DNA of 28,236 nucleotides. Origin: a virus. Made by a program: the position numbers and the translations under genes. Position 1 is the stretch's first letter, and each line of letters starts with the position of its first letter. The notes below the pieces were generated by a model. It ran no database searches. It worked only from the letters and a program-made list of their open reading frames with translations, and had not been told where the DNA came from. This document shows positions 11,134 to 23,881 of this stretch, piece after piece. The DNA lies in the IMG/VR virus record IMGVR_UViG_3300045044_000104, positions 1 through 28,236 of that record. One strand, given 5' to 3'.

Positions 11134-11174
11134 AGCGGGCGCACGACAAATCCTTCTCGAAGGCGTTCCAGTAA
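11124..11174 (+). other. Out-of-frame continuation encoding a shared C-terminal tail
   Basis: In the -1 frame relative to the Ig-like gene, this stretch reads VKVKRAHDKSFSKAFQ and then stops with TAA at 11172-11174. The protein ending at 2076 finishes with RAHSSAFSKAFQ. Nine of twelve aligned residues are identical, and the CGG GCG CAC codons are shared. The shift point could be the A-AAG just before the TAA stop at 11131. It is either a programmed frameshift extension or the remnant of a broken C-terminus. Confidence 0.5.
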
Positions 11175-11202
11175 GGGACGGCGCCCGAATGCAAACTAGA
11201 AG

Positions 11203-11245
11203 GCCATCACCGGGAGCGGACCGGCCGCCACGCTCCCGGGATGGC
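11203..11245 (+). terminator. Strong bulged hairpin in the 5' region of the adaptor gene
   Basis: Left arm 11203-11218 pairs with right arm 11231-11245: 15 base pairs, mostly GC, with one bulged A at 11209 and a 12-nt loop. No T-run follows, so it is not a textbook intrinsic terminator. It ends 5 nt before the GAGGGG ribosome binding site of the gene starting at 11261, so it could also control translation or RNA processing. It lies in the longest gap (127 nt) of the virion gene block up to that point. Confidence 0.55.
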
Positions 11246-11260
11246 GCATAGAGGGGACCG

Positions 11261-13200: not shown

Positions 13201-13470
13201 ATGGCCGCGACGAACATCAACACGAAGACGTTCCGGGTGACGAGCACGCCGGCCAAGGCGCTCGACAGCCGCACCGGCCGCATCACGCTGTTCCTACGTC
13301 CCGGCACCGGCAAGAACCAAATCCTCGTCGGCAACAGCGGCGTCACCTTGGCCTCCGGCTACGCGCTCCCCGACTCGCCGGATCAGGACGTCACCGCCCC
13401 GGTGACCGAGGCCGAAATCTGGGCGGTCTCGCAGACGCCGCGCGATCTCTACATCCTGGAGACGTGGTAA
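13201..13470 (+). CDS. Small hypothetical virion-associated protein
   Basis: 89 aa, starting 2 nt after the fibre gene. Beta-rich with no membrane segment (TFRVTSTPAKALDS, GRITLFLRPGTGKNQILVGN, ending DLYILETW). The size and position next to a fibre recall the protein at 8359-8688, though the sequences are not clearly alike. The stop and the next start overlap as TAATG. No family recognised; perhaps a fibre-associated or tail-completion subunit. Confidence 0.6.
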   Translation: MAATNINTKTFRVTSTPAKALDSRTGRITLFLRPGTGKNQILVGNSGVTLASGYALPDSPDQDVTAPVTEAEIWAVSQTPRDLYILETW

Positions 13471-15020
13471 TGGCGACTCCAGGCCGCCCGTTTCCGATCA
13501 ACTCGCTGCCCGGCATCCGCCGCGACGGCACGCCGCTTCTGGCCGGCAACTTCTCCGACGGCCTGTGGTCGCGCTTCCAGCGCGGGCGCCCGCGCAAGAT
13601 GGGCGGCTACCGGATGATCACCAATCAGTTCGCCGGCTTCGCCCGGGCGCTGCACGTCGCCTCGGCCAACAACGTCATCCACGTGCACTACGGCAGCGGC
13701 CAGAAGCTCGAACATCTCGACCTCTCGCCGGACGGCTTCGGCGGCGGTGCCAGCGACCGCACGCCGGCCGGGCTCGCCGTCGATCCCAACCGCACCTGGA
13801 TGTTCGACGAGGCGTTCGACCCGTCGACCGGCGGCGGCACGCCGATGCTGTTGGCCTTCGCCTCGCCCTCGCTCGATGCCATCGACAGCGATGTGAACGG
13901 GCCGGTCTATTACGGTGACCTCTATGAGGACAACGTGCTGCTGGTGCCGATCACCGGGGCAAATGCGCCCAACGTCTCGGGCGGCCTCGTCGTCATGCAT
14001 CCCTACACCTTCGTCTACGGCAACGACGGCTTCGTCGCCTGGAGCGACGAAGGATTGCCGCTCACATGGCGGGGCGGCGATGCCGGCGACAACCGCATCG
14101 CCGAGTCGAAGGTCGTCTTCGGGGCGCTGGTGCGCGGCGGCGGGCAGGCCCCGGCCGGGCTCTTCTGGAGCCTCAACGCGCTCGTGCGCATGAGCTATGT
14201 CGGCGCCCCGGCGGTCTTCGCCTTCGATACGATCTCGGATCAGACCTCGGTGCTCTCGGCGCACGCCATCATCGAGTACGACGGCGTCTTCTACTGGCCG
14301 GCGGTCGACCGCTTCCTGATGTACTCAGGCGTCGTGCGCGAGATGAAGAACGACATGAACATCAACTGGTTCTTCGATGGCCTCAACAAGGTGCATCGGA
14401 ACAAGGTGTTCGCGACGAAGATTCCGCGCTTCGGCGAAATCTGGTGGTTCTATCCGCGCGGCCATGCGACCGAGTGCAACGCCGCGGTCATCTACAACGT
14501 GCGCGAGGACCTGTGGTACGACACCGACTTCCCGGACATCCGCACCGCGGCGGCGTTCGCGCAGACCTTCCCCTACCCGATCATGGCCGGCGACAAGGAA
14601 GAGGCCAACTGGCCCGGCTTCAGCCTGTGGCAGCATGAGTTCGGCCAGGACAAGATCGTCGATCTCGCGCACACCTCGGCGATCCGCTCCTATGTGATCA
14701 CGGCGCCGATCTCGATGGCGACGAGCGGGCCGTTTCAGCAGGGCTGGTCGGGGACCGAGGGGCTGACGAGCATCGACCGCCTGGAGCCAGACTTCAATCA
14801 GGCGGGGACCATGACCTTCCGCACCATCGGCAGGCGCTTCCCGCGCTCGCCCGACGAGGTCCTGTTCGAGTCGATGTTCGACCCGACGACGGAGAAGGTC
14901 GACCGGATCAGAAACCAGCAGCGCATCATGCGGCTCATGTTCGAGTCGAACACGCTCGGTGGCTTCTACGAGATGGGGCAACCGATCATCCATGTGGAAC
15001 AGGGCGATGTGCGGCCATGA
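13470..15020 (+). CDS. Tail nozzle-like protein (P22 gp10-type)
   Basis: 516 aa from ATG 13470, chosen for its TAATG overlap; an upstream in-frame GTG adds two residues. The opening (LPGIRRDGTPLLAGNFSDG, WSRFQRGRPRKMGGYR) fits phage tail-nozzle and packaged-DNA-stabilisation proteins, which begin by binding the tail hub. The rest is a run of beta strands with propeller-like spacing: VIHVHYGSG, YGNDGFVAWSDEG, GLFWSLNALVRMSYVG, and around residues 295-325 NINWFFDGLNKVHRNKVFAT followed by FGEIWWFYPRG and YNVREDLWYDT. It would close the short tail and hold DNA in. Position after adaptor and fibre is consistent. Confidence 0.65.
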   Translation: MATPGRPFPINSLPGIRRDGTPLLAGNFSDGLWSRFQRGRPRKMGGYRMITNQFAGFARALHVASANNVIHVHYGSGQKLEHLDLSPDGFGGGASDRTPAGLAVDPNRTWMFDEAFDPSTGGGTPMLLAFASPSLDAIDSDVNGPVYYGDLYEDNVLLVPITGANAPNVSGGLVVMHPYTFVYGNDGFVAWSDEGLPLTWRGGDAGDNRIAESKVVFGALVRGGGQAPAGLFWSLNALVRMSYVGAPAVFAFDTISDQTSVLSAHAIIEYDGVFYWPAVDRFLMYSGVVREMKNDMNINWFFDGLNKVHRNKVFATKIPRFGEIWWFYPRGHATECNAAVIYNVREDLWYDTDFPDIRTAAAFAQTFPYPIMAGDKEEANWPGFSLWQHEFGQDKIVDLAHTSAIRSYVITAPISMATSGPFQQGWSGTEGLTSIDRLEPDFNQAGTMTFRTIGRRFPRSPDEVLFESMFDPTTEKVDRIRNQQRIMRLMFESNTLGGFYEMGQPIIHVEQGDVRP

Positions 15021-15316
15021 CCCGGCATGCCACGGTTCGCCGGCACAGTTTCCGGCAGCGCGCCAAGGGGCGCACGCGGCGGCTGCTGCTGCGCCAGCGG
15101 GCCGGCGAGTTGGAACTCCAGGACTGGGCCGATCAGCTGCTGGTCGAGCTGCACGACTACCCGCTGCCGCAGCTCATGGACGACGACGAGTGGAAGACCT
15201 GGGGCAACGATGTCGTGGCGCTTGGCTCTCCGGCGACCACCAACTGTCCGCGGACCGACGGCTATGATAAATGGGATGACTGGGCGGAAGCGTTCACGCT
15301 GGCTTTGGGGGATTGA
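15017..15316 (+). CDS. Small hypothetical protein
   Basis: 99 aa, ATGA-coupled to the nozzle-like gene. The first 35 residues are very basic (RRHSFRQRAKGRTRRLLLRQ), the rest is acidic and Trp-rich (MDDDEWKTWGNDVVAL, DKWDDWAEAFTLAL). A basic N-terminus could contact DNA in the tail channel, but no family is recognised. A 45-nt gap with the parS-like site follows it. Confidence 0.55.
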   Translation: MTRHATVRRHSFRQRAKGRTRRLLLRQRAGELELQDWADQLLVELHDYPLPQLMDDDEWKTWGNDVVALGSPATTNCPRTDGYDKWDDWAEAFTLALGD

Positions 15317-15334
15317 TTGGAGATGTTCTAATCA

Positions 15335-15350
15335 AGTTCCACGTGAAACA
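15335..15350. promoter_or_regulatory. parS: parS-like ParB-binding site
   Basis: AGTTCCACGTGAAACA matches the bacterial chromosomal parS consensus TGTTNCACGTGAAACA at 14 of 15 specified positions; only the outermost base differs. It is a near-palindrome (GTTcCAC / GTGaAAC) in a 45-nt intergenic gap, and AT-rich arms are rare in this GC-rich sequence. Other CACGTG occurrences seen lack these arms. No parA or parB gene is present in the window, so a host ParB, or a phage ParB elsewhere, would be the reader. It also sits 12 nt before the next start codon. Confidence 0.65.
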
Positions 15351-15361
15351 CGGTTGTAACG

Positions 15362-17164
15362 ATGCCGACTTACACGCCCTATACCGGTGACTATTCGACC
15401 TTCGGCGAGGACCCCGGCGGCTGGCACTTCTTCCTCGACGCGGTCAATCCGAATACGCCCGTGCCAGGGAGCCCGTCGCCGTCGACCACGCCGCCCGGCC
15501 GTGGCGGCGTCCTCGGCGGCGACGATCCCGGTACTCAGTACCTGAATACGCTGTTCGGCCGCGGCGGCAGCGGCGGCTCCAGCTTCGGCGCCGGCCGGGC
15601 CGGCGTCGGGCAGCAGGAAGCCAACCGCATGAGCGCCGGCTTCGCGCCCGCGAGCTTCGGCAACATCGCGCGCGCCATCGGCAACGCCTTCGGCGTCACG
15701 ACCGGGACGCTCTCGCCCGCCGGCCTGCTCGGGCTCGGCATGCAGGCGACCGGGATCAAGACCGGGCTGCCCGGCATGGGGATCAAGAGCATGGTCGGCT
15801 GGAGCGGCTACGATGCCGACCTGCAGGCGGCGGTCGACGCCGGCCGCATGTACGAGTCGGAAGCGCAGCGCGAGCAAGGCATGCGCAACGTCGCCCGCTC
15901 GGCGCAGAACGCCATCGCCAGCGGTGTTGGGATGCATGTCGGCCACCCGAGCGGCGCCATCAGCGACGGGGGCGGCGGCGGCGGCCCGTTCGGCGGCGGT
16001 GGCGGCGATGCCTTCGGGCGGGCCTCGGAGCACGGTCCGGCCGGCGAGGCCGGCGGCCCGCGCTCGGGCATGGCCGCGCGCGGCGGCTTGGTCCGCGGGG
16101 GTGCTCTCAGCGGGCACGCGCGGCGCGTCGCTGCGGCCGGCGAGGGCGGCGACAGCGAGCTTGTGCATATGAACAAGGGAGAGCTGGACGCGCTTGCCGC
16201 CAAGTGGGGCGAGCCGGATGTGAACCCGCACACCGGGCTGCCGTCGTTCAACATCTTCAAGAAGCTGAAAAACATCATCCCATTCGTGGCACCGGCCGTC
16301 AGTGCCGCTTTGCCGGGCCTGGGAGCGTACGTGGGCGATGCTCTCGGTATCGGCTCTACCTGGGGTGGGGCGCTCACCAGCGGCGTTCTGGGAACCGCCC
16401 TAGGGGCTTTGAGCGGGGGTGCCAAGGGGGCGTTGACGTCGGGGCTGCTCGGAGCCGGGGCCGGGGCGCTGATGCCACAGCTTCTGCCGGGCAACCCAAA
16501 TCAGCCGTTCGCGCCGTTCGGTGGCACTGCTGGCGCGCTTGGGACGGTGCCGCTGGCGCCGCATGGCGGCGCCGGGGCCGGGCCCAACCCGGCGGCGGCG
16601 CTGGCGGCGACGGCCGCCAGCCCGTCCGGTGGTGGGGCCTCGAAGGCGGCCGGGCAGTCGACCATGAGCTTGGTCATGCCGGCGCTGCTCGGGCTTGGCG
16701 CGCTGGGCGCGCTCGGCGGCGGTGGTGGCAAGGAGACAAAGGGGGGGACACCGACGCCGCCAAAGGGCTTCAGCGACCCGCTGCAAACCCTTCCATTCGA
16801 TCAGAAAGCGATCGACCTGAACCCGGACACCGACTGGTACACGATCGGCGAGCATCCGAACGACATCGCCTCCGGGCAGGGCATGTTCTTCCAGCATCCG
16901 GTCGGCTTCTATCAGGACGGCGGCGCCGTCGATGGCGATGGCGATGGCCAGTCCGACGACGTGCCGGCGATGCTCAGCGACGGCGAGTACGTCGTGCCCG
17001 CCGACGTCGTCTCCAATCTCGGGTCAGGATCAAATGATGCGGGTGCCGGCCACCTCGACCGGATGGTCAAGAACGTGCGCCGTCACCGCGGCCGGGCCAT
17101 GGCCAGGGGCAAGTTCCCGCCCGCCGCCAAGGGCGCCCTCGACTACATGCGGAGTGCAGCATGA
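15362..17164 (+). CDS. Gly/Ala-rich internal virion (ejection) protein
   Basis: 600 aa, with no clear ribosome binding site upstream of ATG 15362. N-terminal part is Gly/Pro-rich. Near residue 240 it has MAARGGLVRGGALSGH, and near 269 HMNKGELDALAAKWGEPDVN followed by GLPSFNIFKKLKN, a segment recurring in phage internal proteins. Residues ~300-375 are hydrophobic and Gly/Ala-rich (GALTSGVLGTALGALSGGAK), able to insert in membrane. Residues 524-533 read DGDGDGQSDD, a DxDxDGxxDD calcium-loop pattern, followed by VPAMLSDGEYVVPADVVS, a known phage motif that usually precedes HLDxMV as here. Likely ejected with DNA. The stop overlaps the next ATG (ATGA). Confidence 0.65.
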   Translation: MPTYTPYTGDYSTFGEDPGGWHFFLDAVNPNTPVPGSPSPSTTPPGRGGVLGGDDPGTQYLNTLFGRGGSGGSSFGAGRAGVGQQEANRMSAGFAPASFGNIARAIGNAFGVTTGTLSPAGLLGLGMQATGIKTGLPGMGIKSMVGWSGYDADLQAAVDAGRMYESEAQREQGMRNVARSAQNAIASGVGMHVGHPSGAISDGGGGGGPFGGGGGDAFGRASEHGPAGEAGGPRSGMAARGGLVRGGALSGHARRVAAAGEGGDSELVHMNKGELDALAAKWGEPDVNPHTGLPSFNIFKKLKNIIPFVAPAVSAALPGLGAYVGDALGIGSTWGGALTSGVLGTALGALSGGAKGALTSGLLGAGAGALMPQLLPGNPNQPFAPFGGTAGALGTVPLAPHGGAGAGPNPAAALAATAASPSGGGASKAAGQSTMSLVMPALLGLGALGALGGGGGKETKGGTPTPPKGFSDPLQTLPFDQKAIDLNPDTDWYTIGEHPNDIASGQGMFFQHPVGFYQDGGAVDGDGDGQSDDVPAMLSDGEYVVPADVVSNLGSGSNDAGAGHLDRMVKNVRRHRGRAMARGKFPPAAKGALDYMRSAA

Positions 17165-17358: not shown

Positions 17359-18564
17359 ATGGCTAGTACGCTCGACTTCCTGTTCCAGGGCTCGCCGCCG
17401 AAGTCGGTGACCACCTACGGCTCGTCCACCGTGGGCCTGCCGCAGTGGTACAACGACTACATCCAAGGCCTCGCCAACCGCGCCAACACAGTCGCCGGAG
17501 CGCCCTATCAGGCCTACACCGGCCCGCGTGTGGCGCCGCTGACGCCGGATCAGCAAGCGGCCTTCCAGACGACCCGCGATGCCGCCGGCAACTGGCAGCC
17601 GATGCTCAATCAGGCGGCCGGCACGCTCGGGACCGGCGGCGCCCTCGCCTACGGCGCCGGCACCACGACGACGCCGCAGGTGATCAACCAGTACATGAAC
17701 CCGTACATGGATGCGGTCACCAATCGCATCGCGCAGCTGGGCACGCGCAATCTGCAGGAGAACATCCTCCCCGGCATCAACGCGACGTTCACCGGGGCCG
17801 GGCAGTTCGGCGGCTCGCGCAATCAGGAATTCACCAGCCGCGCGATCCGCGACACCGCCAACGAGATCGCCGGCCAGCAAGCAGGCGCGCTCGCCTCCGG
17901 CTATGCGCAGGCCCAGGGGGCAGCCGGCGCCGACCTGTCGCGGATGCTGGGAGCCGGTGGTGCGCTGGCCGGCATGGCGGGCCAGTACGGCGCGCTTGCC
18001 GGCCAGCAGCAATCGCAGTCGCTGCGCGATGCTGCTGCCCTCGAAGCGATCGGCCAGGAGCAGCAGCAACAGCAGCAGCAGAACCTCGACGTCGCCTACA
18101 ACCAGTTCCTCGAAGAGCGCGGCTGGCCGCAGGCGGAGACGAGCTGGATGTCCGGCATCCTGCGCGGGCAGCAATTGCCGACGACGACGACCCAGACACA
18201 GACCGGACCGGCCTCTTATTACAATCCGTCGCTGGCGCAGATGCTGATCGGCGGCGGGGCGACACTCGCCGGGCTCGGCGGCACCAGCGGTCTCAGCAAC
18301 TTGCTCGGCTTCCAGCAGGGCGGCGCCGTCTCGGCATCGGATGTGGCTCCGGGCGCGATCGCCTCGCCGAACCGGATGCCGAAGGTGGCGGCCAAGAACA
18401 AGCTGGCGAAGGCGGTCTATTCTGGCCCCGCTGATCCGACGCGAGCGATCATGAAGCCGGCCCATGCGCGCACCGAGAAGGATCGCATGGCGATCCGCAA
18501 GGTGGCGCTCGGCGCGGGCGGCAACTATGGCGCCGGGGCGCTGACGTTCCGGCAGGCGGCATAA
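17359..18564 (+). CDS. Internal virion/DNA ejection protein
   Basis: 401 aa. Residues ~113-160 (NQYMNPYMDAVTNRI, then GAGQFGGSRNQEFTSRAI) match a motif pair found in putative internal/ejection proteins of many phages (NPYxxxV ... FGGSR). The region after it is helical and Ala/Gln-rich, with a run of Gln near residue 233 encoded by CAG/CAA repeats. Residues ~295-330 are Gly-rich and end in GFQQGGAVSASD, a GGAV motif shared with both neighbouring ejection proteins. The C-terminus is basic. Starts 9 nt after the membrane-protein stop; the next gene starts 1 nt after its own stop. Confidence 0.65.
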   Translation: MASTLDFLFQGSPPKSVTTYGSSTVGLPQWYNDYIQGLANRANTVAGAPYQAYTGPRVAPLTPDQQAAFQTTRDAAGNWQPMLNQAAGTLGTGGALAYGAGTTTTPQVINQYMNPYMDAVTNRIAQLGTRNLQENILPGINATFTGAGQFGGSRNQEFTSRAIRDTANEIAGQQAGALASGYAQAQGAAGADLSRMLGAGGALAGMAGQYGALAGQQQSQSLRDAAALEAIGQEQQQQQQQNLDVAYNQFLEERGWPQAETSWMSGILRGQQLPTTTTQTQTGPASYYNPSLAQMLIGGGATLAGLGGTSGLSNLLGFQQGGAVSASDVAPGAIASPNRMPKVAAKNKLAKAVYSGPADPTRAIMKPAHARTEKDRMAIRKVALGAGGNYGAGALTFRQAA

Positions 18565-23354: not shown

Positions 23355-23390
23355 AATACGCATATAGCGTGCGATGCGTAGCCAATACAA
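23355..23390 (-). promoter_or_regulatory. Putative leftward promoter giving a leaderless start
   Basis: Reading the - strand, TTGTAT (23390-23385), 18 nt, TATATG (23366-23361), 6 nt, then ATG at 23354. The TTG box is 36 nt from the start codon. The -10 hexamer matches TATAAT at four of six positions. No ribosome binding site lies between. Confidence 0.45.
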
Positions 23391-23401
23391 GATAGCAGGG
23401 T

Positions 23402-23429
23402 TTATTCCCCGGTATTCCCGTTATCCCCA
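23402..23429 (+). repeat. Phased TAT(T)CCC repeats, one DnaA-box-like
   Basis: TATTCCCC (23403), TATTCCCG (23413) and TTATCCCCA (23421-23429) follow one another at about 10-nt steps. The last differs from the DnaA box TTATCCACA at one position. Related 9-mers TTGTCCCCA (23549-23557) and TTATCCCTA (23560-23568) lie 11 nt apart upstream of the HTH gene. These may be operators or origin elements. Confidence 0.4.
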
Positions 23430-23450
23430 ACGATATAACAAATCTCGTAT

Positions 23451-23468
23451 CTGCATCTTTTGATGCAG
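23451..23468. promoter_or_regulatory. Perfect inverted repeat, candidate operator
   Basis: CTGCATC-TTTT-GATGCAG: two 7-nt perfect arms around a 4-nt T loop, in the AT-richer region about 100 nt upstream of the HTH gene and between the divergent starts. No T-run follows, so it is more likely a dimer-binding site than a terminator. Confidence 0.5.
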
Positions 23469-23795: not shown

Positions 23796-23823
23796 TCCCT
23801 TTGCATATCCCGGGCCAACTTAG

Positions 23824-23881
23824 TAAAAAAATTTCATAAAGAATCCTTGCCTCAAATCCGTCATGGATATAGCCTGGGCGG
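23824..23881 (+). promoter_or_regulatory. Putative leaderless promoter of the replication operon
   Basis: The same 12-mer TAAAAAAATTTC (23824-23835) recurs here, followed after 11 nt by TTGCCT (23847-23852), again exactly 35 nt before the start codon (23882). A possible -10 is TATAGC (23868-23873). The A-tract is shifted by 11 nt, about one helical turn, relative to the copy upstream of the HTH gene. No clear ribosome binding site precedes the ATG. Confidence 0.5.

Follow-up and report, generated by a model that had tools for sequence, protein, structure and literature searches.

The gap ahead of a 600-aa gene in the virion block of this phage fragment contains a 16-bp palindrome, AGTTCCACGTGAAACA, which appears to be a host-type parS site private to the phage lineage and which is probably bindable by ParB. 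Use of the site by the phage is plausible from the sequence comparisons described below. The exact 16-mer occurs in chromosomal parS clusters, and its copies in viral contigs lie between genes far more often than those of a control of the same composition.

The parS-like site and its gap

The site occupies positions 15335-15350 (+ strand) of the window, i.e., the whole 28,236-nt stretch of DNA that was analysed. It is noncoding and is the sole match of its kind in the window (one copy). As the sequence-only reading had stated, it departs from the parS consensus, TGTTNCACGTGAAACA, by one mismatch at the outermost base, and its 14-bp core (15336-15349; GTTCCACGTGAAAC) fits GTTNCACGTGNAAC with zero mismatches. 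That reading had also put the odds of such a match at a few per thousand, lower in GC-rich DNA, and our calculations agree. Matches to TGTTNCACGTGAAACA with at most one mismatch on both strands are expected 0.0024 times per window with equal bases and 0.0006 times at 65% GC, and a perfect 14-bp core, with its two N positions, is expected 0.0019 times. Overall, the chance expectation of the site in the window is about 0.0006-0.003. The site could nevertheless be a coincidence, i.e., a random parS match in a private, AT-richer gap that has no selected role even though ParB might still bind it. An expectation of just 0.0006-0.002 per window argues against coincidence, but the first reading took in many motifs together, which makes an occasional rare match unsurprising, and we regard a coincidental match as an appreciable, though not a likely, possibility.

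The noncoding gap (15317-15361) has a GC content of 42% compared with 65% for the window. Its length is indeed the 45 nt described earlier, but it is not the one gap between genes. Other gaps lie at 11134-11260, 23382-23459 and 23796-23881 and at two more places, depending on the gene calls, and no repeat of the motif was found in the window's other gaps. Upstream of the gap is a small virion-block gene of 99 aa (15017-15316, + strand), which is conserved in relatives by tblastn and has no function assigned. Downstream is the 600-aa virion-block gene (15362-17164, + strand). The latter had been taken for an ejection protein; it matches none and has a weak, tape-measure-like match at its C terminus, and a DNA ejection protein (phrog_4287; E 7e-14) is encoded farther downstream at 17359-18564 (+ strand). 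The distance from the site to the ATG at 15362 is 11 nt rather than 12 nt, and these 11 nt contain no Shine-Dalgarno sequence. An in-frame stop codon (TGA, 15344-15346) upstream of this ATG falls within the site, so the site cannot encode an N-terminal start of the 15362 protein.

A palindrome this close to the 15362 ATG, within low-GC DNA where the gene junction is otherwise tight, would also suit an operator at which some other host or phage regulator reads a CACGTG-centred palindrome and controls the 15362 operon. However, a search of the gap region found neither an intrinsic terminator nor a sigma-70 promoter consensus, the window lacks the second copy often expected of a phage operator, and the arms of the palindrome match parS exactly. 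An operator of this kind is improbable.

The gap also has an imperfect, AT-rich inverted repeat, TTGATTGGA-GATGT-TCTAATCAA (15313-15335, + strand), which overlaps the upstream stop codon and shares its last position with the first base of the parS-like site. The repeat may form an RNA hairpin, one that lacks a U tract, and a terminator search did not identify it as a terminator. The region 15305-15380 is predicted to fold somewhat more stably than shuffled sequences do (z -1.9; 8 of 200). This repeat and fold could point to an RNA-level element, either a hairpin or a control on translation from the 15362 ATG. The palindrome itself, however, forms no stem in the predicted fold of 15305-15380, and in its orientation the mRNA stem would contain a C-A mismatch, contrary to a selected RNA stem, which makes a role at the RNA level quite improbable.

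The phage fragment and its relatives

The IMG/VR record is a linear fragment of 28,236 bp with virion genes, a SNF2-type helicase and a primase. Domain searches of the fragment found no ParB_N (PF02195) and no ParA-type ATPase (PF13614), in line with the earlier claim that ParA and ParB are not encoded here, and no plasmid or lysogeny gene was seen in the fragment. A partition system of the phage or plasmid ParABS type finds no support, as the fragment yielded neither ParA nor ParB and has one site in place of several centromere repeats. The proposal that the site segregates phage-plasmid DNA was rejected as unsupported on the same findings and on the lack of a plasmid or lysogeny gene in the fragment.

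The nearest isolated relatives are the Caulobacter phages RW, KcrB, RLK and GB2A, in which the 518-aa virion protein (13464-15020, + strand; structural or stabilization type) is 43% identical. These isolated relatives infect Caulobacter, and Caulobacteraceae is the family of their hosts. The 518-aa protein served as a query for finding relatives. Searches for relatives with the 600-aa or the 518-aa protein singly gave nothing, and relatives were retrieved with the ejection protein and with a four-member alignment of the 518-aa protein, the latter of which added 80 further relatives.

The core GTTNCACGTGNAAC was absent from all 43 records of relatives (1.38 Mb) and, at zero mismatches, from all 94 relative loci, four of which have one common one-mismatch sequence at a different place. 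At the same junction, genes overlap or are at most 10 nt apart in 52 of the 62 relatives in which the small gene could be placed, so the gap appears to be private to this phage lineage. The sequence-only reading had proposed a search of the record and its relatives for parS and parAB and had named relatives without the site at this position as evidence against it. The lack of parAB in the record agrees with that reading, but the 43 relative records lack parS, which goes partly against it, and a conserved position of the site, which is a supporting rather than a strictly defining feature of chromosomal-type parS, was not found among relatives. The closest relative, however, is only ~45% identical in protein, so absence from relatives is evidence of moderate strength and leaves room for site loss or a recent gain. 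Coincidence needs no conservation, whereas a functional site is often common to relatives; the single copy, the lack of conservation and the lack of detectable partition genes all count in favour of a chance match.

The same 16-mer in bacterial chromosomes

Bacterial genomes contain the 16-mer in identical form, down to its first base A. Of 114 such loci (at most 8 kb each), 17 also hold parB. Three genomes of Brevundimonas (Caulobacteraceae) contain exactly five GTTYCACGTGRAAC sites each, all within ~15 kb, and one of the five sites in each cluster is the AGTTCCACGTGAAACA 16-mer (reversed control, 0). In the one Brevundimonas genome examined further, parB adjoins the parS cluster. Likewise, a Sphingomonadales genome has a four-site array that spans 2.4 kb, adjoins parB and includes the 16-mer. 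At the sequence level, the window site is a real parS variant of bacterial chromosomes.

In two of the Brevundimonas loci (L200 and L239), the 16-mer, a member of the parS cluster near parB, falls within a coding sequence, presumably secB, where it encodes Phe-His-Val-Glu. Derivation of the phage gap from a chromosomal parS region was considered and rejected, as its flanks resemble none of the loci, bacterial or viral, that share the 16-mer.

Placement and orientation in viral contigs

A search of IMG/VR for the 16-mer gave at least 119 stretches, compared with 110 in total for a control, AGTTCCAGCTGAAACA, in which the centre is changed from CACGTG to CAGCTG with the same composition. This centre-swapped 16-mer replaced a reversed 14-mer as main control, since the latter has a different codon content. 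Distinct contexts were counted after near-identical ones had been removed. Among the matches listed, 33 of 86 distinct contexts of the 16-mer were intergenic versus 1 of 43 for AGTTCCAGCTGAAACA (Fisher p 3.4e-6). As background in the same loci, ~11% of 16-nt windows overall were intergenic, as were 17% of the other windows with a CACGTG centre and similar GC, and at loci with at least 55% GC the 16-mer was intergenic in 9 of 26 (among the matches listed), all of these figures being approximate because genes were called by a simple longest-ORF procedure. The excess over background amounts to approximately 65-80% of the intergenic viral copies. The coding:intergenic ratio accounts for the remaining ~20-35% as background, and a coincidental match could belong to this fraction. 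Enrichment across the viral population proves no single site.

The bases that flank the core differ in how often they occur. The T...A flank of consensus parS was strongly over-represented among viral matches to the 14-mer core (63 of 136, with 11 of the 63 from a single locus), whereas the A...A flank of the window site was present in 5 of 136, no commoner than other off-consensus flanks. Between tandem genes, sites in the same orientation, i.e., reading AGTTCCACGTGAAACA along the genes, outnumbered those in the opposite orientation by 17:4 in viruses (among the matches listed) and by 33:10 in bacterial genomes. The window site has the favoured orientation, and its distance to the start codon is inside the range of the viral and bacterial sets. 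Its intergenic placement and orientation agree with the over-represented viral sites, which speaks against coincidence.

In the RNA, the palindrome ATGTTCCACGTGAAACAT, the type found at locus L127 (see below), has a predicted folding energy of -0.5 kcal/mol in the favoured orientation versus -4.5 kcal/mol in the other; with the window site's own flanks, the two orientations are about equal (-2.9 vs. -3.0 kcal/mol). That the favoured orientation of the L127-type palindrome leaves almost no mRNA hairpin fits an element that acts at the DNA level, and we infer from the orientation bias that the DNA site is kept in the orientation in which the message is least disturbed.

Several other viral contigs have parS-like sites. 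Contig G084 (loci L127 and L615; 116,662 bp) has 24 exact GTTYCACGTGRAAC sites in two clusters, at 91.7-95.7 and 105.8-112.4 kb. All but one of the 24 are in one orientation, the remaining one being symmetric. The sites are mostly intergenic, many of them between a stop codon and the Shine-Dalgarno sequence or ribosome-binding site of the next gene. Elsewhere in the contig are genes of a genuine tailed phage (terminase, portal, head protease and major head), and no ParB_N was found in it. As evidence that phages use host parS, this contig is far stronger than the window site. Start-associated sequences of cluster K mycobacteriophages are short elements just before start codons, a placement that the window site shares and that G084 with its 24 sites resembles, but their sequence differs and the window has one copy.

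Smaller numbers of parS cores were seen in two other records, four in G085 (7,779 bp; L134) and three in G086 (37,020 bp; L396), and ParB_N was not found in either. The same 16-mer lies within a virion block at L410 (3280-3295), with a gene for the terminase large subunit on one side and a head protease/major head gene on the other. At three loci (L355, L384 and L419), AGTTCCACGTGAAACA is ~70-80 nt 3' of a gene, which is an integrase at L419 and a gene of equal length at L384; these three sites may be near or inside an attachment site.

Comparison with known systems

The window site has the same 14-bp core, GTTNCACGTGNAAC, as the chromosomal parS of ParABS systems, and its 16-mer occurs in clusters by parB. 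It differs in being single and in lying in a phage virion-gene block, in a record that has neither parA nor parB. The base at which it departs from the consensus is outside the G that we take, from known parS and NBS sequences, to be position 1 of the scheme for ParB and Noc sites. The bases that distinguish the site specificities of ParB and Noc are those at positions 1 and 6 (PMC7383237). In vivo in Pseudomonas aeruginosa, the outermost base may vary (TGTTCCACGTGGAACM) and sites with two mismatches are not bound (PMC5098823). The window site is like P. aeruginosa parS1 and parS4 (TGTTCCACGTGGAACC; PMC5098823) in having an altered outermost base, which is tolerated there in vivo, although it is A or C that is accepted at that end, and the equivalent base of the window site, on the other strand, is T.

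Centromere-like ParB sites on a phage genome are known from the parABS mycobacteriophages RedRock and Miko (PMC7157519). Those phages encode their own ParAB and have direct-repeat arrays, whereas the window phage has one host-type palindrome and no ParAB in the fragment. Imaging of lambda-parS with CFP-ParB showed that ParB loads on phage DNA in the cell soon after injection (PMC13190303), so ParB loading on a phage parS is physically feasible; the lambda-parS phage was engineered and its fluorescent ParB supplied, whereas the window site is natural. No paper on orphan parS sites in phages was found in a literature search that covered work other than preprints and most subscription journals.

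A host-type parS and its possible use

We propose that a chromosomal-type parS, i.e., a nucleation site for host ParB, arose or was captured in the lineage-private gap. In the presence of CTP, host ParB would engage the 16-mer and form a closed clamp, which would then slide outward over the adjoining virion genes. The likeliest use would be in cis, either to mark phage DNA for the host ParB/SMC machinery or to damp transcription into the 15362 operon. It is likely that the site would bind a Caulobacter-type ParB, whatever its history. We infer three further points, namely that host ParB reads the site, that it loads during infection and that the phage benefits.

The earlier suggestion that a host ParB is used is credible because the 16-mer adjoins parB in bacteria, including Caulobacteraceae, and because viral copies are non-randomly intergenic; its extension to phage-plasmid segregation is unsupported. 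For an intergenic viral copy, the ratio in favour of a non-background site is roughly 2:1 to 4:1. In our judgement, the odds for the window site drop from this to about even because the site is absent in all relatives, and the prospects that it has a selected, cis-acting use as a host-type parS would be evenly balanced.

More tentatively, tailed phages without their own ParB may carry intergenic parS sites of host type, numbering one in this phage and two dozen in G084, on which host ParB clamps would load and from which they would spread along the phage DNA. If this is true, ParB occupancy, of which no description was found in the literature searched, would be a possible point of contact between phage and host, and phages would tap the chromosome-segregation and SMC-loading machinery of their hosts without encoding it.
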